Part shown: in pieces, positions 3,211 to 54,424 of the stretch
How positions within the stretch are numbered: position 1 is the stretch's first letter
Layout of the letters: each line of letters opens with the position of its first letter
Assembly (NCBI GenBank): GCA_947172415.1
Contig: OX359189.1
Span: 5,160,501-5,224,500 of the forward strand
Origin: Chondrosia reniformis
Lineage: Eukaryota > Porifera > Demospongiae > Chondrillida > Chondrillidae
DNA length: 64,000 nt
Reading direction: 5' to 3'
Position numbers and translations under genes: made by a program
The notes under the pieces: generated by a model
What the model saw: the letters and a program-made list of their open reading frames with translations, nothing else
What the model was told of the DNA's origin: nothing
The model's database searches: none

Positions 3211-3593
3211 TTTTAGGGGGTGCCACAGGCAGCCCCCTCTATTGTTTTCATAACGCAATTTATGTATGGCTTCATGTTACGGATATATATATATACGAGT
3301 TAATACGCAAGTATTATAACACATTTTATGTTTCGATATATATATAATACGAGTTCATACGCAACTATTATAACACTTAATTTATATGTCAATACATCGT
3401 TTTTGCAAATGGCGGCGTTCAGGAAGCTTTAGTTAACGAAGCTTTTCTGTCGCTATTTATATTTTTCAGGACACTTAAGCGTCCTCAATCGTTAGGATTA
3501 AGAATAGTATATCAAAGCCCAACGATGCGGCCAAGTAGTTCGAGTAAATTCGGGGGGCGGCAGCCCCACGAGTTTTTAAACTCGAACTACTTG
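3211..3593 (-). repeat. Terminal-hairpin repeat, copy A
   Basis: A complete copy lies in reverse. Its 3' end (plus-strand 3216-3237) folds as GGGGGTGCC/GGCAGCCCCC around ACA. Its 5' end (3532-3593) folds with CAAGTAGTTCGAGT pairing to ACTCGAACTACTTG, and encloses a second small stem in the GGGGCTGCCGCCCC segment. Between them are TATA runs, a near-palindrome GGACGCTTAAGTGTCC, TATAAATAG-like and GCCGCCATTTGC elements shared with the other copies. There are no terminal inverted repeats between the two ends. Confidence 0.8.
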
Positions 3594-4070
3594 TTGTTGT
3601 ACAATTGTCTATTAAATATTAAAACGGTAAAATGTTAAGTCAGATTTGTATACGTAATCCAAAACAAATAGTTTCAATTATTCATTATAATACAATAGAG
3701 AGATTTGTTATATACGATTTTGTAAATATACTTGTTTTGTTAACCTTGTAATACTAATTTATGTATATATAGTCATCACTGGATCATCATTATGCTAAAT
3801 GTAATAGAAACCAAACAAAAGAAAGTTTATTAAATGTCAAGTAAAGTTAAGTGAGATTCTTAAAAATATGACTGCTCAAAATTGTTAGTCTAACGCAATC
3901 TGGGTCTTTCTCTTTTGCCACTATCAACGTCATGATAAAAGGTGTTTCGCCTACTGCCATATACATCATCCCATGGCAGGTAGCTATATTTGCATGTACC
4001 AATAATGTATGTCACTTCCAAAGATTGTCATATATAGTTAGACAGTTATCGAAACACACACTCAAGATAT
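3594..4070. other. Unassigned AT-rich spacer
   Basis: No coding segment, repeat copy or RNA gene was recognised in this stretch. The short ORF at 3932-4135 has no supporting feature. Confidence 0.4.
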
Positions 4071-4072
4071 CA

Positions 4073-5830
4073 TTACTCAGAAGTCCAGAGGGAGGCAAAG
4101 GTGGTGAATGCAGAAGATTCTGTATAGGTACGTGATGCATTTGCTGGTAAAATAGCAGTGAAGTGGCTTGCATCAAAGAATCCTAAAAGTGGGGAATACC
4201 TTTCCACATTTGGATGGTAAATAATGCTGTTGTTCAGTCTCTTATCTTTAGCATCAAAAAGGTTCTGTAATTCAGCTGCTGAAGAAGTCACATCAATGCC
4301 TTGCAGCTGCCTGCCTTGATGTTGAACCATTCTGTTACGCATGACTCCATACAAGCAAAATGCCCTCTCCAAAGCAATAGAGAGGGCGTGTAAATGAATT
4401 TGATTCCCCCAGGATCCATCTTGTAGTGAATTGCGAACGAGGTCCAACCACTAAATTTCTGCTTTCTTAACAACTGAAGCTGCACTTCGTTCATTTAGGG
4501 GTAGAAGAATTCTTGCAGTTGGTTGAATGACTTCAACCATACGTTCTCAATGTGTAATGAGGCTGCAGGCAGTCAGCAACCTCAAGTGAGACATGTACTG
4601 CTCTGTTCCAGTAAGGGTTACTGAAATCATGTTGTACATGCAGTTTCCACTTCCTGTAGTGTACAGTGGAACATAAAACAATGTAAAGACAGGTAGAAGT
4701 TTTTCCCTCATGCCAACATCTGCACTGTGGAAGCTGCATGGGATGGCTGATTTACTTCCATCAAAGTAGCTGTAATATCACTCTCATGACACTCTGCCCA
4801 ATTGCTGATCAAATCAGTAGCCGGATTTTCACAGTTCACCATAGTTTCTAACTCTTCTTGAAGTGACAGTACTGGTGAATCAACATGGGGAACAGAAATG
4901 ATTGGAGGCTTGGGTTGGATGGTTAAAGAAAAATTATTCTGCACCGTGGGCATGTGTGTACCTGGAGCAGATTTGGTTGGTGAGTTGGTTTGGATGGGTG
5001 GAGAAGAATTCCTCTGCACTGAGGGTACTGGTGTAGCAACGCCAGGAACGGAACTGGTTGTTGGTTCATTGGGTTTGTTGGATAGAGAGAAACTAGTGTG
5101 CACCAAGAGGTGTGATGTTTTTGACTCATTGTCTGATGTATCATGTGGAGCACTACTCTTCCGTAAACTGGCCATTTCTGCATGCACTCGTTTGTTAGCC
5201 CTGACCTTCTGTGGTTCACAGCCACACCATCTAGAGTCCTAACACAACTCAAGGCCACATATGCCATCCCTTGTTCAAACACTTTTGCACAGGTCCAGCA
5301 TCTAATGACAGACCTTGAACCTTGTGTAGAGTAGCAGCCCATCTTGTACAGCCTGCAGCTGTTGCACTGCTCGCTGCACTTCCTCTGCAAATGCTTCATG
5401 TTGAGCATTAAGGACTTTAAGATCACTTTCACGAGCAATGAAAACAGCCATGGCGGTTTCATGGTGTTGGAGCAAATCAGCCTTTTCTTGCCTCCATGGA
5501 ATGTACAAACCTGACACCTAATTGCCCTCTGGCGCCACGTGGTAGCACTACCAGCTTCATAAAAGGAGTAACACGTGAAATTAAGCGTTCCTCTAAGCTG
5601 TTGAGTCCTTGCACCTCCTTAGGGACTTAATGGGACTCACATGTTATTATCCAAAGCAATACCTGGAATCTTCTTTTTCTTCAAAGAGGATAGACATCTG
5701 GTGCAAAACCAGGTTTCTTCGTCCACTGCAGAATCCAACTTTATAAAATCAACAAACTCATTGCCATCTTGTTGTCGGTAGCGAACATATGTCTTCTTTA
5801 GTCTGGCTAAATGAATATTTGCAAACGCTT
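4073..5830 (-). pseudogene. Collapsed Helitron protein (DUF6570-like, PIF1 C-terminus, OTU protease)
   Basis: Reading from 5830 downward: a segment with LARLKKTYVRYRQQ, a CTRC motif, LISRVTPFMKLVVLPRG matches the DUF6570-like region at the start of Helitron RepHel proteins. It passes, with frame breaks, straight to the last helicase motif of PIF1 (TLHKVQGL and YVALSCVRTLDGV, about 5345-5220). A Pro/Ser/Thr-rich linker (5187-4760) leads to an OTU cysteine protease: GSGNCMYNMISVTLTG (catalytic Cys near 4640), SLQDGSWGNQIHLHALS, and GFFDASHFTAIL (catalytic His near 4165). The Rep HUH nuclease and most helicase motifs are missing, so the copy is internally deleted and cannot be autonomous. OTU domains are known in some animal Helitrons. 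Family assignment rests on motif recognition. Confidence 0.7.
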
Positions 5831-7095
5831 AACCTTGGTGATATATTTCCCAGAGAAATCTTAGATTTGACAGCTTTCCGCTATATGAAGAAGTAGGGGT
5901 TTACTAGTCGTCCCTATCACCAAGGCTACACAGATGGGCATGAGAGACCAGATGTCGTAGAATACAGGAAGTCCTTTCTTCAGAAACTGCCATTTCTGGA
6001 GTCGGTTTATTTGCCACCCCCAATTTGTGAAGACAGGATTGCTTCATGGAATTCTGGTGATCCATCATAGTCGCACTATGTCATCTTCTTGTGTCATGAT
6101 GAGACCGTTTTCAATGCTCATGATGCCCAAGGCACTACTTGGGTGGATCCAGAAGGCAGAGGAGCAATATGACCAAAAGGAAAGGGCCGAGGACTTATGA
6201 TTAGTGAATATATAGAAGAATTTGGAGGATACCTTCGCCTTAATCAGCAGCAACTTGAGGATGCAAGAAGAGGATTTATCTCCTTTCCCAGGGAGGCACG
6301 AGATATGCTGGAATTTCAGCGAGACGGCTACTTGGACAATGAAAGATTCATGAGAAGTGTATGAAAGGCCGTACGCATTGCTGGGTATAAGTATCCCTCC
6401 GACCAGTATGACCTGGTTTGGATTTTCGACCACAGCAGTGGACATCAGGCTTACTTAGAAGATACTTTGGTTGCTTCTCGAATGAATGTCAAACCAGGAG
6501 GGAAGCAACCAAAGATGCATCCAGGAAGGCTTCCAGACGGCATTCCCCAGTCAATGGTGTTCATGGTTAGAACTCCAAAAGGATTAGACATCATCCTTAG
6601 AGAACATGGGGTTAATACAGATGGCTTAAATCGCTTGGAGATGGTGAAGAGGATGCAGGAATTTCCTGACTTCAAACACGAGAAAACCAGTGTACAGCAG
6701 TTTCTTGAGGGAAACATCAGAGATGTCTCTTCAACCCCCAGGTTATTATTCAATTTGGATAGTACATGCTTTGCACATTTTCCACTGTTACACATGTACA
6801 TTTAAGTTCCTACTACTGATCCATTTAGTTCCATCCTGAGCTGAACCCCATGTAAAGATGTTGGGGCAAAGCAAAGAAGTATGTGAGGGTTAACTGTGAT
6901 TACTCCATGTCAGGCTTGAGAAGAGTAGTTCCCGATGCTGTTGACTCAGTTTCCTTGGACACGATCAGGAAATACTTCCACAAGTGTAGGAGTTACAATC
7001 GAGCCTACATAGAAGGTGAAACAACTGGAAAAGATGCAGATATCAAAGTTAAAGAGTATAAATCCCACAGAAGAGTTCCTACGAATGAATGTTAA
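5795..7095 (+). pseudogene. DDE transposase relic, copy 1
   Basis: The plus strand reads WLNEYLQTLN, GYTDGHERPDVVEYRKSFL, PPPICED, CHDETVFNAHDAQ (first D), IFDHSSGHQAY (second D), GGKQPKMHPGRLPDG and DGLNRLEMVKRMQEFP. The final exon follows at about 6824-7095 (FHPELNPM, then DTIRKYFHKCRSYNRAYIEG). In-frame stops occur near 5893, 6067 and 6361. The intron present in copies 2 and 3 between SWNSG and D-x-S-K is absent here, so the exons are directly joined at 6058. The last part of the catalytic NPIE motif is damaged. The reaction would be DNA cut-and-paste at TA. Clearly dead. Confidence 0.75.
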
Positions 7096-7789
7096 TTTGT
7101 ACCTTCAGATATATACCATTGACATGCAAATGATACTATATAAGCAGAATCACTACACAAAATAATATAAGCAGAATCACTATACAAAATATCACTATGC
7201 ACAAGATATAGCCTAAACAGTTGCAAACATTGCATACCATCATCATATTGACTTCATCATCATAATAAAATATCTATCAAAATATTTTATTAAAAATTCT
7301 CAGGATAATTGGATAAGACATGCATCCCTGAATTGTACATTTTAGGAAATTCTACTAAACTTATATGAGTCTTATTGAGCCTTAATTTATGTTTATAAGT
7401 AGACTAGCACATGCTGGTGAGTTGAAACCACATATTTTGATAAGGCTTATAATTGTTTGCAAGTCCGAAATTCAAAGCCTCATATTTTCTTTACAGAAAT
7501 TGAAATAAACAAAATTGATCCGTAACACTTTAGTACTTTTAATACTCATGTATATTCTAGAAGTTAGACTTAAAAGATGATGATATGAAGACACAACGTT
7601 AGTAAACCTGTTACAGCCATATACCCATAAAAGCCGTAATATCTTACCTTTGGTGACCTTAATCAAGGAAAGTCTTCCGTAGAATTTTAGCTACTCTAAT
7701 GATGATTCTTTGGTGAAAGTTACAGATCGATCCAATAATTCTCCAGAGAATAACGTTCACCTCTAAGATCTTTATTAATTAATATCATT
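7096..7789. other. 3' non-coding region of DDE copy 1
   Basis: AT-rich DNA lies between the last transposase codon and the hairpin-like insertion. It includes a short duplication near 7136-7190 (ATATAAGCAGAATCACTA repeated). No gene was seen. Confidence 0.45.
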
Positions 7790-8010
7790 TTTGGGGCGCC
7801 ACAGGTGCCCCTATATTATTTTCAGAAATTATGTTAACTTATGGCTTCCTGTTCATAACATTATATATATATATATCTGTCACCAAAATGGCGGACGTTT
7901 GGTTGGCTTTCGTTTTCTAGCTTAAAACTAGCTTTCTCTTTCTTAGCGTCGAACATTAAATGAACGAAAAGGATTTAGAAACCACCTTTAATAATACTAT
8001 GTAACATAAA
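7790..8010 (-). repeat. Diverged terminal-hairpin repeat copy
   Basis: The order of landmarks matches copy A: a hairpin GGGGCGCCACAGGTGCCCC (7795-7813), TATTATTTTCAGAAATTATG, GGCTTCCTGTTCATAACA, a TA run, then AAAATGGCGGACG and a GCTTTCGTTTTCTAGC segment equivalent to GCAAATGGCGGCGTTC and GAAGCTTTAG of the family. Sequence divergence is high and the far hairpin is missing, so it is probably an old or related-family copy. Confidence 0.5.
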
Positions 8011-8526
8011 GCCTGTGTAAAAACGTTTTCTGCGAGATATAGCCTTGAAAAATTGAAAAGGCAATCAAGTGACAGTGTGGTTAACCGGACATCTAAGAAC
8101 TACATATAAGCCAAGGAACTATTTGTTACGTGATTGCGCAAAATTTATTGTCATAGCAACATATGTCGTAAAAGTTAGTCGTAACCATGGTTACTAGAAA
8201 ATAATACAACGGTTTCCATGGTGAAACTGTCGGTAAATTATAAATTTACCACTTCAGTTCATCAGTCTATATATGCCTCTATATATTTTACATTTATGGT
8301 GAAATGTACTATATGGCCTTTTTAAGTACAGAAAAGGTAGGAAAATTCCACATTTCAGTTGTTTGACACTCGCAGGTGTCTATACGGTCCTGTTTATCAC
8401 GCTTATGTAAACACGACGTAAACGTATACACTTAATGCTTCGCAACAGTGTTTGAAGAAAAGAAATCATCTGAAGTTCGAACAAAAACGAAAAGGTTTCT
8501 GTTAAATATATGTGCGTAACGACGCA

Positions 8527-9276: not shown

Positions 9277-11827
9277 ATGTCAGAAATCGACCAAAATACG
9301 GCGGAAATCGGTAATCGCAAAGATAATAGCATGGAACTAGACCAAGCATGTTCTAGTAGGCCGAAAAGGACTTCTACCACTAAAAGATTTGAATACTGTT
9401 TCGATTTGAGTCACAGCAAAAGGAAGAAGCTTGGCAAATTCAGCAAAAAACAAGGTAGACTACTGGCTTTGAAGAGGTGGCAAACTTCACAACCCAGCCT
9501 TATAGAAAATTCTGAAGAAGGTACAATAAACCTTATCTCTACATCTATCTATCATCATCCTTTTTAGAGGTGCTAGAGTTACAAATATAAAATTAATGGT
9601 TTTGTAGAAAACGATTCTGATCTAACACTCAGCTTGACCGAAGATCCACTGGTAGCTAATACTGGCGATGAATCACTCCTCTTACCTACTTTAGGAGATG
9701 CATCAAGTTCAGATTCATCATCGTCTGAACAAGAGGTGACAACTGCACAATGCAATCATGCACTTAATGTTAAATTATTACATTACATTACAAGTTCTTT
9801 TAAAAATAACAGAATATAAGCATTAAACTCTCCACACATCTTGCAATTCTGCTCCAGGGAAGTGGCACTGAAAGTGATGGAGAGTTTACATATAGGCAGG
9901 CACAGTCGTTAGCACAAAATTGGGTAACATCCTTACCATTGATAGACAAAAAGCAACTAGGTGTCCTGGTTTATGATCATCTTCATCATAGTCACTCAAT
10001 GAGCAGAAGTGAGTCCACAAGAAGCACAGCCGAAGCTCTAGGAATCAGCAGCAGCTCCATTTCCAGGTGGCATAGGGAATACTACTATGAAAAGGGTCAG
10101 ATATCAGATGATAAACGAGGAAAACATGCTAGGTAACCAATAACCATATTCATCACTGCAGGACTGGCAATTATACTTATGCAATCACATTAATATGAAT
10201 ACGAAATCTACATATATACATATTATGTAATCAGCTTCAAATATGGAATATCAACAGTATAGCCACGCAACATTGACAATATTGAAACATACAGACCATT
10301 CATTTTTTCCCTTGGCAATGTACCATATAACTACAGGCCATCGATATTACACCAGGAAGATATAACTCGAAAGTCCATCAAGTGGCTAAGAGAAAAGGTT
10401 CACGACCCTAAATATTCCTTGACAAGTTCCAAGTTTCAGATTTGGTTTAACGACTACATCACAAGTCTTACTTTACCAGAGGGCTTTTCAAAGAAAATAA
10501 GTGAATCTTCTGCATACCGTTATATGAAGAACTTAGGATTTAGTAGAAGACCGTATCGTCAAGGCTATGCCGATGGCCACGATCGGCCAGATGTAGTGGA
10601 ATACAGAAAGAGTTTTCTGAAGAAGATCAAAGCCCTTGAATCATCTCACTTGCCTCCACCATTATGTGAAGATGGCATACCATCTTGGAATTCAGGTATG
10701 AGTTGCATGCAAAAACACCAGAACAATACTGTATGCAGAATTCATCAGAACTTACCTATTTCCAGGTGATCCTTCAAAATCTCGCCACCTAGTCCTGATT
10801 TATCACGATGAAACAGTGTTTAATGCAAATGATGCACAGAGTTCTGTATGGGTGGATGCAACGGGTTCTGGAGCCATACGACCTAAGGGGAAAGGAAAAG
10901 GACTGATGGTCAGCGATTTCATTGAGGAGCATGGAGGTTATCTTGGCTTGTCTGATGATGAATTGAAAGAAGCAAGAAAAGATTTCCCTAGTTTTCCAAG
11001 GGAAGCAAGGGAAATCTTAGAATTTCAAAAAGATGGGTATTGGGATGGTGATAAGTTTTTAAGAAATGTCCGAAAAGCTGTACGCATTGCCGAGTTCAAA
11101 TATCCAGCCACCTTCTATGAGCTAGCATGGATATTTGATCATAGCAGCGGACATCTTGCATTTGCAGAAGATGCACTGGTGGCCAATAGGAGAATATGAA
11201 GCCTGGTGGGAAACAACCCAAGATGCACCCTGGGAAACTGCCAGATGGAACTCCCCAGCCAATGGTTTTCCAGGATGGTACCCCTAAAGGGCTTGAAATT
11301 GTCCTAAGGGAACGTGGTGTTAGGACAGATCATTTAAATAGGTCTGAAATGGTAAAGAGGCTCCAGGAGTATCCAGATTTCAAGTTTGAAAAGAGTAGCG
11401 TTCAGACTTATTTGGAGGCAAAAAATCACAGATGCTTTTTCAATCCCAAGGTATATATGAAATTTAGTGACATTTTTCTTAGAAGAGGCTATCATATAAG
11501 TATACACCTATATAGATATACGTATACTCATGGATGAGTTTAACTTATCTGTGCATGTAGTTCCATCCTGAGCTCAATCCGATTGAGCGCTGCTGGGCCA
11601 AAGCAAAACAATTTGCCAGAGCCCACTGTGACTACACCTTGACAGGACTTAAAGATATTGTGCCAGCTGCTTTGGACTCTGTCTCTTTGGACCTCATTAG
11701 AAAATACTTCCGGAAGTGTCGCAACTACAACCGTGCCTACATTGAGGGAGAGAAAAGTGGAAGAGATGCTGATATTAAGGTCAAACAGTACAAGTCCCAC
11801 AGGAAGGCCCCTAGCAGCGAAGCTTAA
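9277..11827 (+). CDS. Six-exon DDE transposase with about 110-residue D-to-E spacing (copy 2)
   Basis: Exons by splice signals: 9277-9520, about 9608-9735, about 9858-10133, 10337-10694, 10766-11450 and 11560-11827. The N-terminus has a helix-turn-helix region (STAEALGISSSSISRWHREY). Catalytic motifs are IYHDETVFNANDA (D1), IFDHSSGHLAFAEDAL (D2) and FHPELNPIERCWAKAK (E). Between D2 and E lie a conserved GGKQPKMHPGKLPDG block, GTPKGLEIVLRERG, and a helical segment. The end is rich in K/R. A one-base deletion near 11193 shifts the frame just after D2, so this copy is probably inactive. The 5' exons are less certain than the last four. The same family is seen at 5795 and 45925. Confidence 0.75.
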
Positions 11828-17460: not shown

Positions 17461-17544
17461 ACAAGTATTTCGAGTTTAAAAACTCGTGGGGCTGCCGCCC
17501 CCCGAATTAACTCAAACTACTTGGCCGCATCATTGGGGTTTAAT

Positions 17545-18066
17545 CAGAGAGTACGGTAGTACTCTCTATGTAGGTATGGTACGGGTTGTTTCGTTTTCCC
17601 CATACATTGGTATAGGAGCGAAATTCCGAATTAGGCTGAAAATCGCCAAAACGAGACTATGTAGAGTTGAATATAGAACAAACATGCTATAAATTGGCCT
17701 TGAAGGCAAGCGACCGTGTATCGTTGGCAAACGAACGAACTTTGAAATCTCCCATTTTCGTTTTCTTCTTCTTCATCTTCTTCTTCATCTTCTTCATCTT
17801 CTTCGCCCGCTGTAACTAAAAAACGAAATAAGCCTTCGGACTACTTCTTAATCGAAATTACTCTAACTTTTCCTAGCTGTATTCTTTTGTAAAAGCGAGA
17901 GCGATAACGCTTTTATTGAGTATGACAGTTTTCATGGCTCAAGAGTCAAGACCTCAAAAAATTCGCCATTTTAATGACGTCGTATTCAGTCGAAGATTGC
18001 AAAACCAAAGTGGTTTAAAATACAACGAATTCCTAGCTTATGCTCCATAAAAAGTACAGAAACTAG
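17545..18066. other. Insertion in hairpin copy B, left part
   Basis: It starts with a small perfect stem AGAGAGTAC-GGTA-GTACTCTCT (17547-17568), directly at the junction with the repeat. A (CTT)n/(CTTCAT)n pyrimidine tract follows at 17764-17806. No protein was recognised. The ORF crossing the junction (17486-17692) is not supported. Confidence 0.45.
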
Positions 18067-18307
18067 AGAACAATAAAAATTTTCTACAAAAATAGTGAAG
18101 ATGTAGGGATGGCACAAAAAGCATAGAAACAAGAAAGGGATGTTACACAGTGAAGCATTAGCTATGCATGAATCCTACAAGCAAGGGTGTTGTATGATTC
18201 GTGCATATATAGCTAATGCTTCACTGTGTAACATCCCTTTCTTGTTTCTATGCTTTTTGTGCCATCCCTACATCTTCACTATTTTTGTAGAAAATTTTTA
18301 TTGTTCT
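18067..18307. repeat. Near-perfect foldback element 1
   Basis: Two arms of about 100 bp are reverse complements (outer bases AGAACAATAAAAATTTT and their complement at 18291-18307), with only a few differences near the centre and a loop of about 9 nt (GCAAGGGTG). The right arm ends where the hairpin-family sequence resumes. It is the structure of a foldback MITE or a hairpin-forming non-coding RNA. The ORF predicted inside the arms is a by-product of the palindrome. Confidence 0.85.
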
Positions 18308-18339
18308 TATATATATTCTTAACCCTAATGATTAAGTGT

Positions 18340-18410
18340 CCTGAACATTATAAATAGCGACAGAAAAGCCTCGTTAACTAAAGCTTCCTGAACGCCGCCA
18401 TTTGCATCGT
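18340..18410 (+). promoter_or_regulatory. TATA-like and YY1-like elements in the hairpin repeat
   Basis: The conserved body of the repeat carries TATAAATAG (18350-18358), then about 45 bp later GCCGCCATTTGC, the complement of an AANATGGCGGC-type YY1/initiator motif. In copy B this stretch lies immediately before the Tc1 open frame at about 18415. The same pair is kept in copies A, D and F. Promoter function is inferred only from motif and spacing. Confidence 0.4.
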
Positions 18411-18414
18411 ACAA

Positions 18415-19370
18415 CTGTATTATGGAAGAAGGATTTCTTATGGCAATGTCGTGAATGTTCTAAGGGCAGAAGAGATTGTAGTACCAAAAAAGACAGTGTG
18501 GCAGACCATCCAGAAGTACAAAATTCATGGGACCATCACTCGTCTTCCGGGGTCAGGGCGACCATTCAAACTTACAAGTGAAGTGTTAAAGATAATTGAA
18601 AATCAAATAAAAGCAGATAACGAAACCACTGCTTTGCAACTCCTTAAAATCATAGAGGACCAAGGGCATAAAGTGTCCAAAACCACAATCATTAGAGCCA
18701 GAAAGACACTAAGATGGACCTTCCATGGTAGTAGGTACTGCCAAATGATCAGGGAGAAGAACAAGGAAAAGAGGGTTGCTTGGGCAAAAGAAAATTTAGA
18801 AAATAACTTTGAAGATGTTGTATGGACTGATGAGTCCATGATTCAATTAGAAAACCATGGAACTTTCTTCTACAGAAAGATAGGGGCAGCACCAAAGCCA
18901 AAAGCTCGCCCCAAAATCCATTCAGGGTTATGGTGTGGGCTGGGATATCCAAGAGGGAGCCACCAATATCTACATTATCAAAGGATCTGTGGATAGCTTA
19001 GGCTATCAAGAGATATTGCAGACACATCTTATACCTTTCCTCCAAAGAAAACTGCCACAGGGAAAGCTTCAACAGGACAATGCCCCCTGCCATACTTCAG
19101 TGTCCACTTGAACATTTTTGGAGGATCATGGAGTAGATGTACTGAAGACACCAGCTGAGAGCCCTGACGTCAACCCTATAGAGAACTTATGGCATGAACT
19201 GAAGCATTTTATTTGTACAAGAGCCAAACCACGAAACAAGGATGAACTTTTAGATGCCATAAAAACATTTAGGCAACTGTTACTCCTGAAAAGTGTTTAC
19301 GGTACATTAATCACCTAAGAAAAGTGATCCCTAAGGTGCTGGAGGTAAATGGTGAAGCTACAGGATACTA
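18415..19370 (+). pseudogene. Tc1-type DD34E transposase relic
   Basis: The protein reads GRRISYGNVVNVLRAEEIVV, TVWQTIQKYKIHGTITRLPG (HTH region with a GRPF-type hook), VVWTDESMIQLE (first D), then after a frameshift near 18927 VMVWAGISKRGATNIY, KLQQDNAPCHTS (second D), a TGA at 19109-19111, and ESPDVNPIENLWHELK (E). There are 34 residues between the second D and the E, counting the stop as one, as in Tc1. The length is close to the usual 340 residues. The 5' terminus abuts the hairpin repeat rather than a recognisable Tc1 inverted terminus. Confidence 0.85.
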
Positions 19371-19547
19371 ATTGTTTTTATTTAATAACATATAACTTAA
19401 TTTAATATTATTATCTGTAATTATGGTAAAAGTTTTGATTACATGGAATAATTAAAATTCATAATAAAAAAGTAATACATATAGATAAGTAAACAAAAGT
19501 ATATATTAAAGAAGTAATAATATAAAAGTAAGGCCATGCCATAAAAG
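19371..19547. other. AT-rich spacer between converging Tc1 relics
   Basis: No inverted terminus of either Tc1 relic could be recognised here. It is simple AT-rich DNA. Confidence 0.4.
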
Positions 19548-20005
19548 TTATGTCATATATATTCTTGGTTTTGAGGTGCCAGCTTTAAAATATTCTTGAA
19601 TATCCCTGCTAGCGTGCTTGGGGTTGTTATCTTGATACAGACGATGCCATTCTGGGTATACATTTTGAATAAAGGGAAGCAAAGGTGCAGTTAATATGTC
19701 GGCGCATCTGGTTTTTGTAGAAATCTTATCAAACATGACTATATCCGTGGCTCCTCTCTTTTAAATTCCTGCCCACACCTGTATTTTTAGGGGGTGCTTG
19801 TGTTTATACTTTAGCTTTCTTGGAGCTCCTTTAATCCTGTAGCTTTTTCGTCTGTGAATATCCAGTTGAATGGTAGATTCTTCAGTGAATATGACATCAT
19901 CAAACTGTTCTCCTTCTGCCAATCTATCCTTGCACCATGCAAGGCATTTAACCTTCGCAAAGTGGTTAAACCGAAATAGGCCAAATTCTCATTTTTTCTT
20001 CTCTT
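19548..20005 (-). pseudogene. Second Tc1/mariner-type transposase relic
   Basis: On the minus strand a broken frame reads RLAEGEQFDDVIFTEESTIQ, HRRKSYRIKGAPRKLKYKHK, VWAGI, then TAPLLPFIQNVYPEWHRLYQ and DNNPKHASRDIQEYF (second catalytic D). The first catalytic residue is E (TEES) where FTDES is usual. Both ends are missing: the N-terminal half stops at the hairpin-repeat junction near 20005, and the C-terminal E motif was not found. It points toward the plus-strand Tc1 relic. Confidence 0.7.
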
Positions 20006-20117
20006 TTTAAATGAGCTAGCGTTAACATGTGAACTTACGCAGTTAATATCCGTAACATGAAGCCATACATAAATTGCGTTATGAAAACAATAGAGGAGGC
20101 TGCCTCTGGCAGCCCCT

Positions 20118-20351
20118 AAAAAGTAACTAAACAGGAAAGTGATCATATAGTAAGGCTAAAATTGCAGAAGTGGAATATATACTGAAACTTAACTATATAC
20201 ATCACTTCTATGTTTGGGCGCATCAATCCCTACTTCTAGTATATCCATGATGCGCCCAAACATAGAAGTGATGTGTATAGTTAAGTTTCAGTATGCCACT
20301 TCTGCAATGTTAGCCTTACCATATGATCACTTTCCTGTTTCGTTACTTTTT
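20118..20351. repeat. Foldback element 2
   Basis: Arms of about 105 bp pair imperfectly: AAAAAGTAACTAAACAGGAA at the left against its complement ending GTTACTTTTT at 20351, including ATAGAAGTGATG and GGGCGCATCA near the tip. The loop is about 22 nt. The left arm begins within the CTAAAAA tail of hairpin copy B. Confidence 0.8.
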
Positions 20352-21190: not shown

Positions 21191-21191
21191 C

Positions 21192-24527: not shown

Positions 24528-25562
24528 CAGACCTGCCAAGGCTAGGCTTAGAGCATGCGTGAGACTTTCTCAAGAAATGAGTGAGACTGCCCCAAAAATG
24601 CGTGAGATTTCAAAAAAAAATTTCGCTCGCAATGCTCGCGTTCATTTCCCTCAATACCCTTACTGTTATCATTAGATGGCTAATACCATACATTACGTCA
24701 TCAATTAAAAATGGAGGAGAAAGTGCCGCTGCGCTTACGGATTATGGTTAGATCATGAGTCTATAAGTCGTAATAAATGGGATACGGATAGATCATCGAC
24801 AAGAATTTAAAGACATATACTCCACAGCCAAGGAATAGCCCCATCAGCCTGTATGGCTGATCTGCCTGCTGGGGAGACTAGAGTGAGTGTGACCATAGGC
24901 GTAGTACAAGGTCTGGCCAGCCGGCAGCTGCCGGACCAATAATTTCTCAGCCGAGGAAGAAACAAGTAGTTCGAGTTTAAAAACTCGTGGGGCTGCCGCC
25001 CCCCGAATTAACTCGAACTACTTGGCCGCATCGTTAGGCTTTAATATATATATTCTTAATCCTAACGATTGAGGACGCTTAAGTGTCCTGAACATTATAA
25101 ATAGCGACAGAAAAGTTTCGTTAACTAAAGCTTCCTGAACGCCGCCATTTGCAAAAACGATGTATTGACGTATAAATTAAGTGTTACAATAGTTGCGTAT
25201 GAACTCGTATTATATACGTATATATAAACTTTTAATTTTTTTGGGAATTATACTAGAACTGTTCTTCAAGATAATGGCATGTCATCATGTGTTCACTTTA
25301 AAGATGTACTTTTGTTTTGTAACATGTCATTGAATGTAAAATGTTAAATTATGATCAAAAATTGAGAATAAAGAAATTGCGAGCGAAGCGACCAAAAAAA
25401 TTTTTGCTCGCCTGACCAAGGCTTATCTCACTGCTACACCCCTGGTGACAGTGAGTGAGAATCAGGAAAAGGCGTGAGATCTGGCACAGATATGTGTGTG
25501 AGCGTGACATGACAGTCAAATGCGTGTGTCTCACGCCAGATGCGTGAGACTTGGCAGGTCTG
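24528..25562. mobile_element. 1035-bp non-autonomous TIR element
   Basis: The left end CAGACCTGCCAAG is the exact complement of the right end CTTGGCAGGTCTG. The flanks are both CTATATA (24521-24527 and 25563-25569), a 7-bp target duplication. Subterminal GCGTGAGACTT-type motifs recur on both sides (near 24555, 24600, 25470 and 25540). No transposase is inside. A terminal-hairpin repeat (24963-25228) is nested within it. Confidence 0.85.
24963..25228 (+). repeat. Terminal-hairpin repeat, copy D (3' end missing)
   Basis: The left hairpin is intact (CAAGTAGTTCGAGTT pairing with AACTCGAACTACTTG, 24963-25024), followed by GGCCGCATCGTTAGG, TATA runs, GGACGCTTAAGTGTCC, TATAAATAG and GCCGCCATTTGC. 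It stops in the AT-rich part, without the GGGGCTGCC right hairpin. Confidence 0.8.
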
Positions 25563-25791: not shown

Positions 25792-25919
25792 CAAGTAATT
25801 CAAGTTAAAAAACTCGTGGGGCTACCACCCCCACACTTAAACTACTTGGCCACTTTGTTGGGCATACAATGCAATCGGCAAATGAAGACAATTTATAGGG
25901 GGCTCCCACAGGCAGCCCC
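25792..25919 (+). repeat. Terminal-hairpin repeat, minimal copy E
   Basis: Only 128 bp long, it has a degenerate left hairpin (CAAGTAATTCAAGTT with CTTAAACTACTTGG) joined through GCATACAATGCAATCGGCAAATGAAGACAAT to the right hairpin GGGGGCTCCCACAGGCAGCCCC. Nearly all internal sequence is deleted, which shows that both hairpin ends are retained together. Confidence 0.75.
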
Positions 25920-41371: not shown

Positions 41372-41578
41372 TGTAGCATAGTAACTAACTAACTACTGCA
41401 TGCATAGTAAACATCCTGTGATGATTTTATATTTCTGCTGTATCTGTTGGTTTGTAATTTAGCTTTCTAGAACTTTCTGTGATGTATATATGCTATTGTA
41501 CAGAACTTAATAATCATCTTTTACCCGAAAGTGACTCGAGTACGGTTAAGCAGTGTTACCATAATATAACTCCCCGAC
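41372..41578 (+). repeat. Gypsy 2 left LTR
   Basis: Identical to the right LTR except one T/G change near 41431 and the last bases (CCCGAC here, GTGACA in the right LTR). Confidence 0.88.
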
Positions 41579-41605: not shown

Positions 41606-42409
41606 ATGGCAACTCCGCAACCCGAAGGGACAAACCAACCAGCCGTGAGTCTTGCTGCCGTTTCCGTCAAGATTCCCCCGTTTTGGCCTGCTGATCCACA
41701 AGTCTGGTTCGCCCAAGTTGAGGCCCAATTCACAACCCGCAATATCAGCTCGCAGAAAACGCGCTTCGACTATGTTGTCGCCTCTCTTGCCCCCGAATTC
41801 GCTACGGAAGTCCGCGATCTTATCCTCAAACCGGCAGAGGAAGACCCTTATGACGCCCTTAAGGAACAACTAATCTGCCGCACAGCGGCTTCAGAACAAC
41901 GCCGTCTTCAAATGCTTTTTAACGCTGAGAAACTGGGCGACAGGAAGCCAACTCAACTTCTGCGACGGATGCAACAACTCCTAGGTGACTCCGCAGGACC
42001 AGAACCAGATAGCTCCTTCCTTAGGGAACTCTTCTTGCAGCGCTTACCAGGTAGTGTTAGGATGGTTTTAGCCTCCACAGGCAACGCTATGTCCCTCGAG
42101 GCTCTTGCCCAAATGGCGGACAAAATCGTAGAAGTTGCAACGCCTACGATCTCCGCAATTAATGTCCCCCATATTTCATCGGAAGTGGACCAGCTACGGA
42201 AGGAAGTTGCACACCTCAGAGAGATTATCTCCTCCCTTAACACATCACCAGGTAGCTCCAGACCCTCTCGCTCAAAAAGACGTTTGCCCAGCCCACACCC
42301 AGCCAATTCTACTCCTACCACTTGTTGGTATCATCGACGGTTTGGGGAAAAAGCTCGCAAGTGCAACTCACCTTGTGACTATTCGGGAAACGAGCCGGCC
42401 AGTCGCTAG
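41606..42409 (+). CDS. gag: Gypsy 2 gag
   Basis: An intact frame of 267 codons from ATG 41606 ([20 protein letters not shown]). A capsid-like core has [39 protein letters not shown] and [19 protein letters not shown]. The end carries a minimal zinc knuckle-like [18 protein letters not shown]. It ends with TAG at 42407-42409, and pol overlaps in the -1 frame, so a -1 ribosomal shift is the likely way to make Gag-Pol. Gag coats the genomic RNA in the cytoplasm. Confidence 0.88.
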
Positions 42410-44730
42410 TGGCAACGAGCGCTACTGGCCTACCATCAAGTCGCCTCTTCTTTATTAAGGAACGAGTAACTGGTATGCATTTTCTGGTGGACACGGGAGC
42501 TGAGGTGAGTGTTATTCCTAGATCTCTTACTGCAGGTACCCCTCAATCCTCTCCACAACCAGGGCTCACCTTACAAGCAGTCAACCACTCCCCTATTATG
42601 ACTTTTGGTAATTGCTCCATTACTCTCAACATTGGTTTACGTCGCTCCTTTCGTTGGATGTTTGTCATAGCCGATGTGAAACATGCTATATTAGGTGCTG
42701 ACTTTCTTCGTCATTACAACCTCTTGGTGGATGTCAAACACAGTGCCTTAATAGACACCCTCACACACCTGCAGGTACATGGTTTACTGACTCAGGAAGC
42801 ATCTCCCAGCCCCAGTCTACCAGACGTAGTTCCTCAGGATGTGTTTGCAACCATTCTGGCTGAATTCCCGTCCATAGTTCGCCCCCACCACAAGGAACAG
42901 CCCCTACAGCATGGAGTAACCCATCATATTAATACTACTGGTCCCCCAGTCAGTGCCCGCCCTCGTCGGTTGCCTCCTGAGCGCCTACATATTGCCCGTC
43001 AGGAATTCAACCGTATGTTGGAATTGGGAATTATTCAGCCTTCTTCCAGTTCCTGGGCCTCACCTCTGCACATGGTCCCCAAGAAGACACCTGGAGACTG
43101 GCGCCCTTGTGGAGACTATAGGGCACTTAACGCCATCACGCAACCCGACTGCTATCCCATCCCTCACATTCAGGACTTTGCCGCATCCCTCCATGGAGCC
43201 ACCATTTTCTCTAAATTAGATCTGGTACGTGCTTACCATCAAATCCCTGTGGAGTCCGTTGATGTTCCAAAGACTGCTGTCATCACACCATTCGGCTTGT
43301 TTGAGTTTCTACGCATGCCATTTGGCTTGCGCAACGCCGCTCAGACCTTCCAGCGTTTTATTGATCAGGTCCTACGTGGTTTGCCCCACAGCTACGCCTA
43401 TATTGACGATATCCTCATTGCTAGTACCACCAAAGAAGACCATAAAGTTCACCTCCGACAGGTCTTCACACGTCTCAGAAAGCATGGGATCCTGATTACC
43501 CCCTCCAAGTGTGTCCTGGGTGCAGAGTCGCTGGAGTTCCTCGGGCATCATGTGGACAGACATGGTATTCAACCAGTAGAGGGGAAAGTGACAGTTATAC
43601 GACAATTTCTTCAGCACACCACCCAGCGCAAATTACATCAGTTTTTAGGATTGATCAACTTTTACCATCGCTTCATCCCTGACTGTGCAAAGATCCTACA
43701 ACCACTTAATGTACTACTAGCTGTCCCGTCTAAAGGTGAAGACAAACACCTAATTTGGACGGAACAGGCTGTTTCTGCCTTTAAGCAGGTAAAGGAGGCT
43801 CTAGCCAAGGCCACCCTTCTATTTCATCCACAACCTGATGCCCCCACTTGCCTCATTACTGACGCATCAGATGTGGCTGTCGGTGCTGTACTACAACAAC
43901 TTATAGGAGCAGTGTGGAGCCCTATTGCTTACTTTTCTAGAAAACTTCAGCCAGCTGAAACTAAGTATAGCACCTTCGACCGTGAGCTCCTAGCTATATA
44001 TTTAGCAATCAAGCACTTTCGTCACTTTGTGGAAGGTAGGACATTTCACGTGATAACTGACCACAAACCCCTTACCTTTGTTTTCTCCATCCAGACTAAG
44101 CAGCATTCTCCTCGGCAGATACGACACCTGGACTTCATTTCACAGTTCACCACAGATATCCGGCATATCAAAGGTGTAGACAACACGGCAGCTGATGCCC
44201 TGTCCCGCCTGGAGCTGGATGCATTGCATGAAGCTGGAGTCCCGGCCATTGATTTCAGGGCCATGGCTAAAGCCCAAAGTGAGGATACAGCATTGCATAA
44301 TCGTGAAACCTCATCTTCCCTCACACTCCAGGAGGTTCCCAGTCCTACAGCAGATGTTACTTTGATGTGTGACACAACCACTGGAGTTCCCCGGCCCTAT
44401 GTTCCACCTGAATTTCGTCGCAAGGTTTTTGACAGTTTGCATTCCTTATCCCATCCAGGTATCCGTGCTACTCAACGCCTGATAACAGCACGCTACGTCT
44501 GGCCTGGTATCAACAAGGATGTCCGCAAATGGGCCCAAGCTTGTCTTCAATGCCAACGATCAAAAGTCCATCAGCACACAGTTACACCGACATCCACCTT
44601 TGCAACTCCGGATGCCAGGTTTGACCATGTTCATATCGACATTGTTGGCCCACTACCATTAGTAAAAGGACACTCTTACCTCTTGACATGCGTTGATCGT
44701 TTACCCGTTGGCCAGAAGTTATTCCTCTAA
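42409..44730 (+). CDS. pol: Gypsy 2 pol: protease, RT, RNase H, integrase start
   Basis: One open frame of about 770 codons: protease [13 protein letters not shown] (residues about 25-37), RT with ILVPKK-type [55 protein letters not shown] and YIDDILIAS, RNase H with [16 protein letters not shown] and [14 protein letters not shown], and integrase zinc domain [10 protein letters not shown] with CLQCQRSK, then [20 protein letters not shown] (first D). There is no own ATG; it is read in the -1 frame after gag. A one-base loss near 44701 breaks the frame at VDR, before the rest of integrase. Confidence 0.9.
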
Positions 44731-45776: not shown

Positions 45777-45924
45777 GATGTCTAAAAAGAAACAAATAAA
45801 CACTTACACATTTTAAGCTTTTTAGAGGTGTATACGCTTGTTACGTTGACAACGCTTTATTCGAAAGTCAAGCTATAATAACTAAGGTGATTTAAAGACT
45901 AAAAAGCTTTTAAAGTAGGAAATT

Positions 45925-48274
45925 ATGTCAGAAATCGACAGAGAATTGGCCGAAGTCGGCAATCATGATAATGAGGAACTATCCAGTGAAAGAACGACTG
46001 AGGAAAGCGGTTGTAGCACAGTCAATTAAGGCATACTACAGAGGAGTACTCCTTCCCCAGCCTCAAGACTGGGTAAAAGGCAAAAGAGGTCTGAAAAAGC
46101 AAGAAGGATGCTGGAAAAAAGGTAACGAGGTCTCCTTCACTAGCTACCGTATCAGAGTCTTCAAATGATGAAGGTAAAAATTGATATTATATTACATATA
46201 CAGAATTGTTTGCATATATTATTCATTGATTACATTTCATAGAGGAGAGTGGTCATTCCTTTAGTCACACCAGCATTATTCCTTCACCTAACTTGCAATT
46301 TGAGGGTGGTATTGAATTTTTTAGCCCTACCAGTCAGTTTTCCAACATACCTCAGTCAGACAATGATCTTAATCCTGCTATCTATGACCCATCATCTTCT
46401 TCTGAAGAGCCTGAGGTATTTAGCTAATGTGCAACAACATGTTTCAAATGTTAAATTATCATAGACTGTTATGCATAACAAGCAATATAGGAAATAAAAC
46501 TTTACATGCATGGTTTCATGTATAAATAGGATAGTGATGATGAAAGGGATCATGAAGATGAGGGTTTTTCTTATGGACAGGCAAGGCCACAGTTACAAAA
46601 TTGGGTGAAATCATTATCATCTAAAGATAGGACGAAAATAGGTGTACTAATTTACAACCATCTTCAGCATCATCACAACTTGGGTAAAGTTGAATCAGCT
46701 GAAAGCACAGCTATAGCACTAGAAATTGAAAAGCGATCAGTAACTAGATGGCACAAGGAGTACTACAGAGAAAAAGGTGATGTATCAGGTGACAAAAGAG
46801 GAAAACATACAAGATTGGCATTACTTGACCAAGAGGACATCACCCGAAAATCTGTGAAGTGGCTAAGAGAGAAAGTACACAATGCCAAATACTTTCTTAC
46901 TGCTGCCAAATTCCAGTCCTGGCTGAATGAATATCTTTCAACACTTAATCTTCCTGAGCACTTCCCAAAAGCAGTGTCTGAAGTGACAGCTTACCGGTAT
47001 CTCAGGAAGTTAGGATTCCATCGTCGCCAATATCACCAGGGCTATACAGATGGCCATGATCGACCAGATGTAGTGGAGTACAGAAAGCTTTTCCTCAAGA
47101 AACTGAAGATACTACAATCTTCCCACTTGCCTCCACCTATATGTGAAGATGGGATACCCTCATGGAACTCAGGTAATGTCATTAAAGCGTGATGTAATAT
47201 GTTCATGCTTACTATATGGCTTTGTTTTTCAATATACTAGGTGATGCTTCAAAGTCTCGGCATGTTGTTTTCATTTACCATGATGAGACTGTCTTCAATG
47301 CCCACGATGCTCATAGTTCAGTGTGGGTGGACCCTTGGGAAGTGGAGCAGTTCGACCTAAAGGTAAAGGCAAAGGCATCATGGTAAGTGATTACATTAAA
47401 GAGTTTGGAGGCTACCTACATCTAACCGAGGAAGAACTGGGAAAGGCAAGACTGGACTTCATATCTTTCCCAAAGGAAGCTAGAGATCTGCTGGAATACC
47501 AAAAGGATGGCTATTGGGATAATGAGAAGTTCCTGAAGAGTGTGAGACGTGCAGTTCGCATTGCCGAGTTCAAATATCCTGCAACTCACTATGACTTGGT
47601 ATTGATATTTGACCACAGCAGTGGACATCTTGCATTTTCAGTGGATGCTTTGGTAGCCTCCATAATGAATGTCAGTCCTGGAGGAAAGCAACCTAAGATG
47701 CACCCTGGAAGGCTGCCAAACGGTGATCCCCAACCCATGGTGTTTGATGATGGCACTCCAAAAGGGTTAGAAATTGTGCTCCGAGAGTGTGGTGTTATGG
47801 TTGACAAACTCAAAAGAGCAGATATGATTAAAAAGCTGCAGGAATTTGAAGATTTTCGGAATGAAAAAAGTAGTGTACAGACATATTTAGAGGGAAACAC
47901 CACAGGTGTCTCTTTAATCCCAAGGTATGTATAATAATGAAACATATATGCATGTACATATAATATATAAATACATTTTTTCCTTACAGTTTCACCCTGA
48001 ATTAAATCCAATTGAGAAATGCTGGGGAAAAGCCAAGGCCTTTGCCAGAGTAAACTGTGACTACTCCATGGAAGGATTGCGTGGAATGGTTCCAAATGCT
48101 CTGGACACAGTTTCTCTGGACCTCATCCGCAAGTTCTTTAGGGAATGTAGGGACTACAACCGTGCCTACCTAGGGGAAAATGTGCCAGGTGAAGAAGGAG
48201 CTAAAACAGGCAGAGATGCAGATATTAAAATTAAAGAATACAAGTCTCACAGGAGAGTCTCATTAACCACATGA
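45925..48274 (+). CDS. Long-spacer DDE transposase, copy 3
   Basis: ATG at 45925 (MSEIDRELAEVGNHDN) aligns with copy 2. The 5' exons are poorly defined. From about 46590 the frame is long: LSSKDRTKIGVLIYNHLQHH, STAIALEIEKRSVTRWHKEY (HTH), KSVKWLREKVHNAKYF, GYTDGHDRPDVVEYRK. An intron lies at 47173-47240. Then IYHDETVFNAHDAHSSVWVD (D1), LIFDHSSGHLAF (D2), GGKQPKMHPGRLPNG, an intron at 47925-47989, and FHPELNPIEKCWGKAKAF (E), KTGRDADIKIKEYKSHRR. The count from D2 to E is about 112 residues. The exon before the last intron seems one base short (as in copy 1), and a one-base loss near 47330 shifts GS/VRPKG. Best-preserved coding of the three. Confidence 0.78.
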
Positions 48275-50647: not shown

Positions 50648-50649
50648 CT

Positions 50650-51225: not shown

Positions 51226-51239
51226 TTTTCCACAGCAGT

Positions 51240-51879
51240 TGTGTTATATTATCAGTTATATCTCATCACACAGAGCGAAACTTACCAAAAGACTACTTAA
51301 AGATTTAGCATATTTCTTAAATATTCTTATACTAAAAGTCTGTATCAATTAGACTAACTTGAAAGGAGTGCCAATTAAAAGCCGTCAAGGTACGGAAATA
51401 TGGAAACACGCAATAACTTTCTTATAAAATGTCATATTAAAAAAAGCTACTTACGTTTTGGAGTGCTTACAAGGGCTACCAAAAGCCAGCATTTTGGTCT
51501 TCAATCAAGATATAATGAAGAATTCAAGCTTACGATTGTGCAATCTGGTGATGTATTGCAGGGGTGTCAAGTTGACAATGTGAAAATGAGTGAGATCAGT
51601 CAGCAGTGCGCATTAAACTACATTGGGTGCACGTGGCATTTACACAGATTCTGTGAACCTTCTACTATAATATAGGAATTTACATAAAGAAGCCATTTAC
51701 GCACTCTGACTCGGTCTCCAGTCGACCGTTGTCGAATTTCCACATGAATACGTGTTCAGCTACAAGCACGTGACGGCAGCTGATTGCGCCACTTTCAAGT
51801 CTGGAACCGGGAATAAGACGCCCATGTGAATGAGGACTGAGTGATTAAGCCTCAGCCACGTTAGCAGCTAATGTGTGAG
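51240..51879. other. Unassigned spacer
   Basis: A weak ORF runs at 51400-51675 without recognisable domain. No other feature is supported. Confidence 0.35.
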
Positions 51880-51961
51880 AAGTTTTTCTGTATGAGTGTG
51901 AAAGTAAGAAATCTTTCGAGTGCGTGTGTCACACGGCCAATGTGTGTGACTTGACAGGCCT
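51880..51961. repeat. Solo right end related to the 24.5-kb TIR element
   Basis: The string GTGTGTGACTTGACAGGCCTG ending near 51961, preceded by GTGCGTGTGTCACACGGCCAATG, resembles the right end of the 1035-bp element (GCGTGAGACTTGGCAGGTCTG). No matching left end was found. Confidence 0.5.
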
Positions 51962-53942
51962 GGTATTGTGATATTTCTCTAGTGTGTCATAAACACTCTT
52001 GTATGTCGCTCTGTACACATTTAGTGAAAATCACGACGTTTTCCGCCTTGTTGCAAAAGAAGATCACCCTTTCAATAGTAGCTATGACAAGTCCACGCTC
52101 TCCTACAAGAAGGAGCTACAGAATAAGCAAGTTGTAGCGAAGGTTAGATAAAGCATATTTGTGTACGTTTCCGTTAGGTTTGAGACAGAATTGTCCCCAT
52201 ATTGATGCAAAAGAAATTCGTTTAGTCGACCATATTAAAACTTTTGTAATTTAAGCTCTGTCTTCTCTTCTTACGTCTTTTTTCCTATTTTTTCTTGTCC
52301 ATGTGTACAAATTCGGAGTGTTTGTTGCGATCATTATGAGAATGAAGCCTTGCTGAGCATCAGCAACATGAATTTACTAATTTCCTACTGGATATTCCCA
52401 TTCCTGTATTACTGATGGAAACCTCCGGGTTGAAACGTCCAGAATTAGTTATGTTACTGATGTTCAAAGAGGCTTTATTCTTATCCATGTGTGTACGTTT
52501 TCCATGTGTACATACAGTAGAATCTCATAACGAAATTGCTCATAGTGAATGTCTAAGTATAGTGAAGTCCTTTGCTGGCTAATTGCACTCAAGTACACTA
52601 CACAGTGAAAGTTACTTGCTAATATATAAAATATTAAAATTATAGTCAAGTACTACACAGTACAAGTTACAAATTTAAGAGGTCCAAGTGACTATACATA
52701 AAATTACAATCAAGTACTAGCTACACATGCAGTGCAAGTTATGAATTTAGGGATCCATGTGACTCCTAGGATAATCAGTATTTTAAACAGTACAAGACTT
52801 TAGTCACACAGTTGCAGGCTTTGAAATCCTCAACTACTGCATAGAGTAGTTGTTGATACAGGTCATCCAATTGCAAGGTAGAACACATGGCCTACCAATT
52901 ACCTTTTCATACCTTTGTATAGACTGAAGATGATGCATCTGTATGTCATATATCAACAAAGGTTCCAGTCTTAAAGGGGTCCAGCTAATAACCACAGCAG
53001 ATATGATTTGCCTTGTAAGGGAGCTAAGAATACCGACGGTTGGTTGCATGCATTCGCATAATCAACAGGGTTAGAGACCATTTTGTAACCTGTACACAAG
53101 GACATAAAAGGCCAAGGCCTCATCCACTGCCTGTACTTCTCCATACTGCCTTGGCTTTATCTGACTGAGTGACTACCTGCGCTTCGGTAGTCACTCGCAT
53201 ATATAGCATAATTAAATACCACACATATATACACTTTTAGAACTATGGCACCAGAAGTGACATAATTATTTGGATAAAGTTGGGATGTGTAATCAATTCT
53301 CTGAGCTAAAGTGTGATTTTGAACTATGTACATGCAAAATAGATCTGCAGTTGAAACGGCATGCCATACAGCATACAGCATAGGCATATAGCATGTAGGA
53401 AAATGGTGTATTGGATTATTCATGCATACATAATTTGTACTAGTTATTATACTGTAATTGTATAAATAGGAGTTTACAACATGTAGCTATACAAATACCT
53501 TAGCTACAACTACCTATACCTCTATACATGGCCCTGACTACCTCATGTTTATATATTATACAGCCATGACTAAACTAATGGCTTGCAACTGTAACAGAAG
53601 TATTAGTGATTTAGATTTTATTTAAAGTTGTATATATCTCAACTATTTACCAGTAACTATATAGATATTATACACATATCTATATATAAAAGAGACTGAG
53701 GTCGCGTAATATATAAGCAAACAAAATGTGGTATTAAGCCACCACCACCTAACTGCCACTTATCCACGTTTACCAGAATATGATAGAACTTTAAACCTCC
53801 TTTTCTGCTCTCTTTGTTATCTCTGTTGCTACAAACGAACGCGGAGCAAGATCGGACCATAGTCGCTTGCAATAAAACAAGAAACTTTCAGTTTGGCTAT
53901 ACCGTAACATACTTTCTTGCCACATGTTCGACTTTGCAATCT
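51962..53942. other. Unassigned spacer with pogo-like terminus
   Basis: At 52515 CAGTAGAATCTCATAACGAA looks like a Tigger/pogo end without a partner. Near 53170 the stem GTGACTACC/GGTAGTCAC can fold. Repeated CAAGTACTACACAGTACAAG-type units occur at 52640-52740. No protein-coding gene is supported. Confidence 0.4.
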
Positions 53943-53998
53943 CATACAACGTAATCAGCAAATGAAAACCATATATGGGGCTGGCAGCCCCTAAAAAA
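53943..53998 (+). repeat. Terminal-hairpin repeat, isolated 3' end
   Basis: It carries the family's last 56 bases (CATACAACGTAATCAGCAAATGAAAACC and GGGGCTGGCAGCCCCTAA). It is joined head-to-tail, without spacer, to the full copy that begins at 53999. Confidence 0.8.
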
Positions 53999-54424
53999 CA
54001 AGTAGTTCGAGTTTAAAAACTCGTGGGGCTGCCGCCCCCCGAATTAACTCGAACTACTTGGCCGAATCGTTGGGATTTAATATATATATTCGTAATACTA
54101 ACGATTGAGGACGCTTAAGTGTCCTGAACTTTATAAATAACGACGGAAAAGCTTCGTTAACTAAAGCTTCCTGAACGCCGCCATTTGCAAAACGATGTAT
54201 TGATGTATAAATTAAGTATTATAAAGTATTATAATAGTTGCGTATATATGAACCTGTATTAAATATATATCGACGTATAAATAAAGTGTTATAATAGTTG
54301 CGTATCAACCTGTATTATATATATAGATATATATATATATATATATATCTTTCCGTAACATGAAGCCATACAACGTAATCGGCAAATGAAAACAATATAA
54401 GGGGCTGCCTGCGGCAGCCCCTAA
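53999..54424 (+). repeat. Terminal-hairpin repeat, full copy F
   Basis: The reference copy of the family, 426 bp: left double hairpin (53999-54060), body with GGACGCTTAAGTGTCC, TATAAATAA, GCCGCCATTTGC, an internal duplicated AT-rich part (TATAATAGTTGCGTAT twice), a TA run of about 30 bp, and the right hairpin GGGGCTGCC-TGC-GGCAGCCCC followed by TAA. Confidence 0.85.

Follow-up and report, generated by a model that had tools for sequence, protein, structure and literature searches.

The 64,000-nucleotide stretch of the Chondrosia reniformis genome analyzed here (assembly GCA_947172415.1, contig OX359189.1, positions 5,160,501 to 5,224,500; hereafter the window, with positions counted from its first letter) carries short repeats with self-complementary hairpins at their ends. 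Our results indicate, with a probability that we put at about 0.93, that these repeats are non-autonomous Helitron2-type rolling-circle transposons of two families, A and B, which are moved in trans by the Rep/helicase of longer partners, Helitrons D and C. A sequence-only reading of the window had listed at least seven full or partial copies of a single family, of a form for which no described family was known to it. A repeat is indeed present at all seven places, but two families had been mixed, the element at 7788-8096 belonging to family B, and the features in question are those by which Helitron2 is defined in the excerpted text of Bao and Jurka (2013, PMC3627910). A and B are therefore new families of an already described form.

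Ends and orientation of the repeats

The window contains one well-kept full-length copy of family A, at 53999-54424 on the minus strand, with its 5' end near 54424 and its 3' end CTTG at 53999. Read on that strand, it consists of a T-run, a hairpin GGGGCTGCC/GGCAGCCCC, about 340 bp of interior, a second GGCAGCCCC, the palindrome CGAGTTTTTAAACTCG, CTTG and TT. The borders, taken from this other strand, were sharp in 30 fetched copies (loci L009-L038, the window copy included), all of which can be written as a T-run, AGGGGCTGCC-NNN-GGCAGCCCC, the interior, a second GGCAGCCCC, CGAGTTTTTAAACTCG, AA(C/A)TACTTG and TT. Their span from AGGGG to CTTG is 418-434 bp. The 5' asymmetrical terminal inverted repeat (ATIR), GGGGCTGCC, sits one base (A) after the T-run, and the end of the 3' ATIR, GGCAGCCCC, lies 26 nt from the 3' terminus in all 30 copies. 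The left T-run comprises 5, 6 or 7 Ts in 25 copies, 2 in four and 1 in one, and the right T-run has at least 2 Ts in 29 of the 30.

These borders reverse the orientation given by the sequence-only reading, whose 5' end is the true 3' end. The termini of family A are T(n)AGGGG at the 5' side and CTTG at the 3' side, and the CTAA that had been likened to a Helitron end is the 5' terminus (TTAGGGG...) read on the complementary strand. The statement that the repeats have no terminal inverted repeats was wrong as well, because the two GGGGCTGCC cores are inverted repeats, the second GGCAGCCCC being the inverted repeat of the first GGGGCTGCC. Since the first GGGGCTGCC copy is itself part of a hairpin, the same core had been seen at both ends and the inverted relation had been missed.

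Family A has both a 5' hairpin, formed from the 5' ATIR, and a 3' hairpin. In the window copy, the 5' hairpin TTAGGGGCTGCC GCA GGCAGCCCC (54401-54424, minus strand) gave a fold z of -5.4, and the 3' end (53999-54060, minus strand), which includes an outer stem, the 3' ATIR GGCAGCCCC, the palindrome CGAGTTTTTAAACTCG and the CTTG terminus, folded as DNA at -25.3 kcal/mol with a z of -8.0 (200 shuffles each). The 3' ends of Helitrons C and D gave z values of -7.4 and -6.9, and the 5' hairpin of family B gave -4.2, with 1 of 200 shuffles equally good. The core of family B is GGGGCGCC, with the ATIR pair GGGGCGCC/GGCGCCCC; hairpin cores thus differ between A and B and match between both ends of a family. 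Compensatory changes that preserve the ATIR and hairpin features are described for two related elements in the excerpts of PMC3627910, so that the within-family match repeats a known pattern. Pattern searches gave 866 matches for the 3' arm versus 285 and 67 for the 5' hairpins; this apparent 3' excess was not used as evidence, because the stringency of the patterns differs and each 3' end has two arms.

In the 5' hairpin of family A, the 3-nt loop was found in both orientations (ACA/TGT, GCA/TGC, ATA/TAT and AGA/TCT, for example at C8:2861295-2861325; contigs are numbered with C), as if the hairpin or its loop were inverting.

Dispersal and insertion into T-runs

The 15-mer CAAGTAGTTCGAGTT occurs 429 and 437 times on the two strands of the 117-Mb, 15-contig genome, and its reversed control does not occur. 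A search with the window copy (53990-54430) returned at least 40 other near full-length places at 94-98% (best 40 of 1787 candidates). The 30 fetched A copies lie at 30 places, and their flanks differ except for those of L017 and L025, which are similar on both sides.

T-runs border the 30 copies, and a clean set of empty sites for one insertion shows insertion into a T-run and agrees with the absence of a target duplication. The empty-site search used the joined flanks of 32 copies, and the results below are from among the matches listed, much of them minisatellite noise. Unoccupied versions of the site of the A insertion in L005 are found in L004, L027, L031 and the window (1772-1929, minus strand, TTTTTT at the insertion point). 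The filled site reads AAGGGATTTTT, element, TTCATTTAGG, and the empty site GGGATTTTTCATTTAGG in L004 or GGGATTTTTTATTTAGG in the window. The L038 site is compatible with T-run insertion, though its paralogues differ in the number of Ts, and for L009 and L036 the joined flanks aligned with further copies of the element. The excerpts of PMC3627910 likewise describe insertion after TTTT, with no target duplication, for non-autonomous Helitron2 families of Chlamydomonas.

Numerous A insertions (flanks of L010, L016, L021 and L033) and copies of Helitron C (L082, L084 and L088) lie within ACTAGTTGTATGT-type minisatellites, another dispersed repeat.

Protein-coding partners in the same genome

The sequence-only reading had likened the hairpin ends to those of Helitrons or HINEs, or to single-strand transposition, and had proposed comparing them with an autonomous Helitron of the same genome. 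This was right in substance: the ends match those of elements that encode Rep/helicase, at both ends for Helitron D and at the 3' end for Helitron C.

The PF14214 (Helitron_like_N) profile matched 133 places in the genome. The A ends were not found within 30 fetched Rep loci (L039-L068) with 1.5-kb flanks, the ends lying farther out. Two copies of Helitron D, one on C6 and one on C1, agree at 99.4% of 14,233 columns and diverge at L072:4225 and L074:4527, directly after CTACTTGTTT / AACTCGAACTACTTGTTT. The 3' end of family A matches the last 66 columns of D at 86%, with the core GGCGGCAGCCCC in common, and family A matches the D 5' part, which holds 45-bp tandem repeats, at 79% over 393 columns. 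This 5' part adjoins an A copy in L023, the stretch used as query, and the sequence downstream of that A copy is found, collinear, in other D copies (for example C4:4079848 and C4:4080589, with Rep at C4:4092637). Upstream of query base 133, the start of TAGGGGCTGCC / TAGGGGCTGCCGCAGGCAGCCC, there was no non-self alignment among the 63 matches listed (best 40 of 1180 candidates). Four further D-like 5' ends open with a T-run and GGGGCTGCC, three as TTTTTAGGGGCTGCC and one as TTTGGGGGCTGCC; those on C5 and C12 share one flank and do not count as independent. Around 40 D-like 5' places, a Rep match within 25 kb lay on the same strand downstream in 28 and upstream in 2, and on the other strand downstream in 10 and upstream in 1; within 15 kb the corresponding numbers were 20, 0, 5 and 1. 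D has a frame of 2523 aa, the halves of which, scanned apart, contain STPRs, DUF6570 and Helitron_like_N, and PIF1 and OTU.

Sequence comparison thus indicates that Helitron D has both ends in common with family A. An A element looks like a fusion of the first ~360 bp and the last ~65 bp of D across a shared GCCAAGTA stretch; by the reverse course, D may have acquired its 5' end from an A copy.

A single frame of Helitron C (L069/L070) encodes DUF6570, Helitron_like_N and PIF1, and the next frame encodes OTU. In a search with its 3' part (best 40 of 695 candidates), 18 of 24 non-self alignments longer than 350 bp end at query bases 774-780, at most 7 bases after the CTACTTG at 773; two of the remaining six continue in a short additional piece that ends at 777. 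Six further C copies were inspected at this border, five of which read CTACTTG followed by TT with differing flanks and one CTACTTTTTTG. Family B matches the 3' end of C at 91%, that of A at 84% and that of D at 81%. Exact B 5' ends (TTTTTGGGGCGCCNNNGGCGCCCC) number 67 in the genome, with none for the reversed control. This sequence had been expected just upstream of the C genes; none of the 67 matches is at the anticipated C 5' end, and two lie inside C copies (C8:3027860 and C12:3574231).

At C5:4579043-4624636 (L069, L070, L075 and L076), a Helitron C that lacks its 5' part and abuts an A relic forms three tandem units of 11,965 bp, which are 100% identical where compared. The left junction is at the end of the A relic and the right one at the Helitron 3' end. 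Over 4.3-5.0 kb, both sides are apparently the same host DNA (99.3% over 1,858 bp at one end and 99% over 91 bp at the other), which has the appearance of either a target duplication of unusual length or a tandem duplication whose breakpoint coincides with the Helitron. The idea of a rolling-circle concatemer, each unit of which would bear an element end, was rejected, because the unit border is not the element border.

Proposed mechanism and alternative explanations

We propose that the short elements bring only end signals, namely the 5' ATIR hairpin after a T-run, the 3' ATIR, and the 3' palindrome ending in CTTG at a T-run. The Rep/helicase of D for family A, and probably that of C for family B, would recognize these ends in trans. 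Rep would nick at the T-run, and one strand would be displaced and copied, starting at the 5' T-run and stopping at the 3' palindrome. The 3' palindrome, together with pairing between the 5' and 3' ATIRs as proposed in PMC3627910, would end the copying round, and the copied strand would then be joined between T residues of another T-run without target duplication. Recognition of the ends by the protein, rolling-circle copying and its termination are here modeled on the published Helitron family. The hairpin-ended repeats are settled as non-autonomous Helitron2 elements with protein-coding partners in the same genome, and two families with differing hairpin cores make a natural set for testing ATIR recognition by Rep/helicase.

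In the excerpts of PMC3627910, Helitron2 elements have ATIRs of 8-15 bp, the 5' ATIR lying 0-2 bp from the 5' end and forming a 5' hairpin, and the 3' ATIR lying 20-30 bp from the 3' end and adjoining a 3' hairpin. The families described here share the ATIR spacing, the hairpins at both ends and insertion at TTTT|T; in contrast to the published elements, they add a 15-bp outer stem round the 3' ATIR, and their partners carry OTU. FoHeli1/2 of Fusarium oxysporum, as covered by the excerpts of PMC5148889, are alike in having a 5' hairpin with a 3-nt loop and, close to the 3' end, an inverted repeat that lies within a hairpin; for fungal Helitrons, these excerpts report no endonuclease. FoHeli1/2 differ in end sequences and insertion site, and their authors noted no variation in the number of 3' Ts. 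The ends are distinct from those of canonical Helitron1 (5'-TC, CTRR-3', A/T insertion and a 3' hairpin only): here they are T(n)AGGGG and CTTG, with T-run insertion and a 5' hairpin. Neither inverted repeats at both exact ends nor a fixed-length target duplication, as in a miniature inverted-repeat transposable element (MITE) or another cut-and-paste DNA transposon, was found, and the hairpins were not found to lie inside a larger element with normal inverted termini.

The closest rival, though an improbable one, is that the repeats are true HINEs, derived from endonuclease-bearing Helentrons and not from endonuclease-less Helitron2. HINE/DINE-1 elements, the non-autonomous Helentrons, have palindromic subterminal inverted repeats, a 3' palindrome, variable T-strings and insertion at TT, according to the excerpted text of PMC4067079, all of which resemble the repeats here, and the OTU domain of the partners also occurs in Helentrons. 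However, endonuclease is what defines Helentrons, and no endonuclease domain, let alone one fused to Rep/helicase, was found in the frames of C or D by Pfam at E values up to 0.001, with 1.8 kb of D outside the sequence read. Among 120 listed of 300 homologues, endonuclease models (PF03372 and PF14529) appeared only from rank 36 down. In a tree of 118 rows, all 43 endonuclease proteins fall in a side of 73 rows, 30 of which are also without endonuclease, and C and D fall in the other side of 45 rows with none; this tree was made by a quick method, is unrooted and drawn from the midpoint, has several long branches flagged, and includes no named Helitron1 or Helitron2 reference. Far less probable is that the hairpins serve as sites for a single-strand transposase, IS200/IS605-like or Replitron-like, that has no relation to Helitrons. 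IS200/IS605 elements likewise have terminal hairpins and make no target duplication (excerpts of PMC3627910), but the same ends here delimit elements with a Rep/PIF1 helicase frame in matching orientation. We give least credence to the repeats being immobile, decayed pieces of one segmental duplication or satellite. Some neighboring copies are indeed tandem (53943-53998 with 53999-54424, and L036), one site is common to L029 and the window copy at 3213, and L017 and L025 have similar flanks; against this stand the 30 places with nearly all flanks different and the paralogous empty sites, that of L005 above all.

Several observations weigh against non-autonomous Helitron2 elements moved by C and D. 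Transposition itself was not observed, and movement is deduced from the features above. The filled L005 site is two Ts longer than the empty L004 site, with nothing else duplicated, and TT may be either part of the element or a 2-bp duplication; in agreement with this site, the excerpts of PMC4067079 describe T-rich insertion in which it is left open how many terminal Ts belong to the element. The T-run of L034 is not clean, its paralogues reading GTCCTATTTATAT and its filled flank GTCTTTTTT. Among the 40 D-like 5' places, 12 have no same-strand downstream Rep within 25 kb, and the 10 with a downstream Rep on the opposite strand count on the same side, as does the 1.8 kb of D not covered. The 3' ends separate the partners modestly, family A matching D at 86%, B at 84% and C at 82%. 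The pairing of B with C, which we consider probable from sequence comparison, rests on the 3' end and the core, because the 5' end of C lies beyond the sequence reached.

The outer stem is a further such point. The long stem noted in the sequence-only reading exists as sequence: a second arm copy lies upstream of the 3' ATIR, beside the standard short 3' palindrome, and the resulting 15-bp stem additionally encloses the ATIR. Over 22 rows of A, B, C and D, however, it shows no excess covariation, with 400 of 500 shuffles pairing equally well, and in 15 of the 22 rows the seventh pair of the stem cannot form. Slid controls pair at most 48% versus 92%, a difference accounted for by the consensus-derived stem alone. 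The published features are an ATIR hairpin and a short palindrome, and the outer stem is unexplained. It is conceivable, though doubtful, that the 3' end is a two-state switch, with either a short palindrome that leaves the 3' ATIR free to pair with its 5' counterpart, or a long stem hiding the 3' ATIR, which would give a fold-gated, family-specific end-pairing code separating A and B.

Copies in the window

Directly after the 3' end of the full-length A copy, a 5' fragment of another A copy (53943-53998, minus strand) follows head to tail. A head-to-tail A tandem is also present in L036 (C9:5182727-5183568), where the upstream unit breaks off at a TTTTT within its 3' palindrome and the start of the next unit lies at that point; both tandems fit T-run joining in rolling-circle copying. 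The A copy at 3213-3593 (plus strand, 80%) is nested in a relic of the 3' part of Helitron C with internal losses (2702-5770, minus strand), where its insertion site is that of the L029/L070 copy. The relic is 86-94% identical to L069/L070, matching L070 and three separate stretches of L069, and was also listed at C1:5163202 in the genome search with the C 3' part. The element at 7788-8096 (plus strand), the sole B copy in the window, has the core GGGGCGCC and the 5' 317 bp, lacks the 3' end, and is 87% identical to a full B copy.

Three further A copies on the minus strand were identified by sequence match. The first, at 17462-20122, is one copy in three pieces (17462-17544, 18308-18406 and 20049-20122) split by two unrelated stretches, and its interpretation as a 2.7-kb element was rejected. 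The second, at 24963-25223, retains the 3' end and has lost the 5' end in the true orientation. The third, at 25792-25919, is a mini-element of the two ends, which had been taken to show that the ends move as a unit. One other full-length place was found (C12:3855985-3856119, 90%, the one other among the best 40 of 614 candidates), which suggests, without proving, such movement.

Other repeats in the window

The second of the stretches that split the A copy at 17462-20122 holds a Tc1/Tc3-type transposase frame (18382-18996, HTH_Tnp_Tc3_2). Three inverted-repeat pairs at 18067-18307, 20118-20351 and 1479-2704, with arms of 60-264 nt that are 93-98% complementary, are perhaps foldback or MITE-like elements. 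Three diverged copies (64-71%) of one repeat lie at 6155-7015, 10864-11747 and 47338-48176; from reading the sequence, it looks like a DDE-type transposase, and the sole frame scanned (10263-10766) had no Pfam match. A 783-aa frame at 42379-44730 contains reverse transcriptase, RNase H and integrase zinc-binding domains, and the identical 201-bp direct repeats at 41372 and 45570 would fit the long terminal repeats of a recent retrotransposon.

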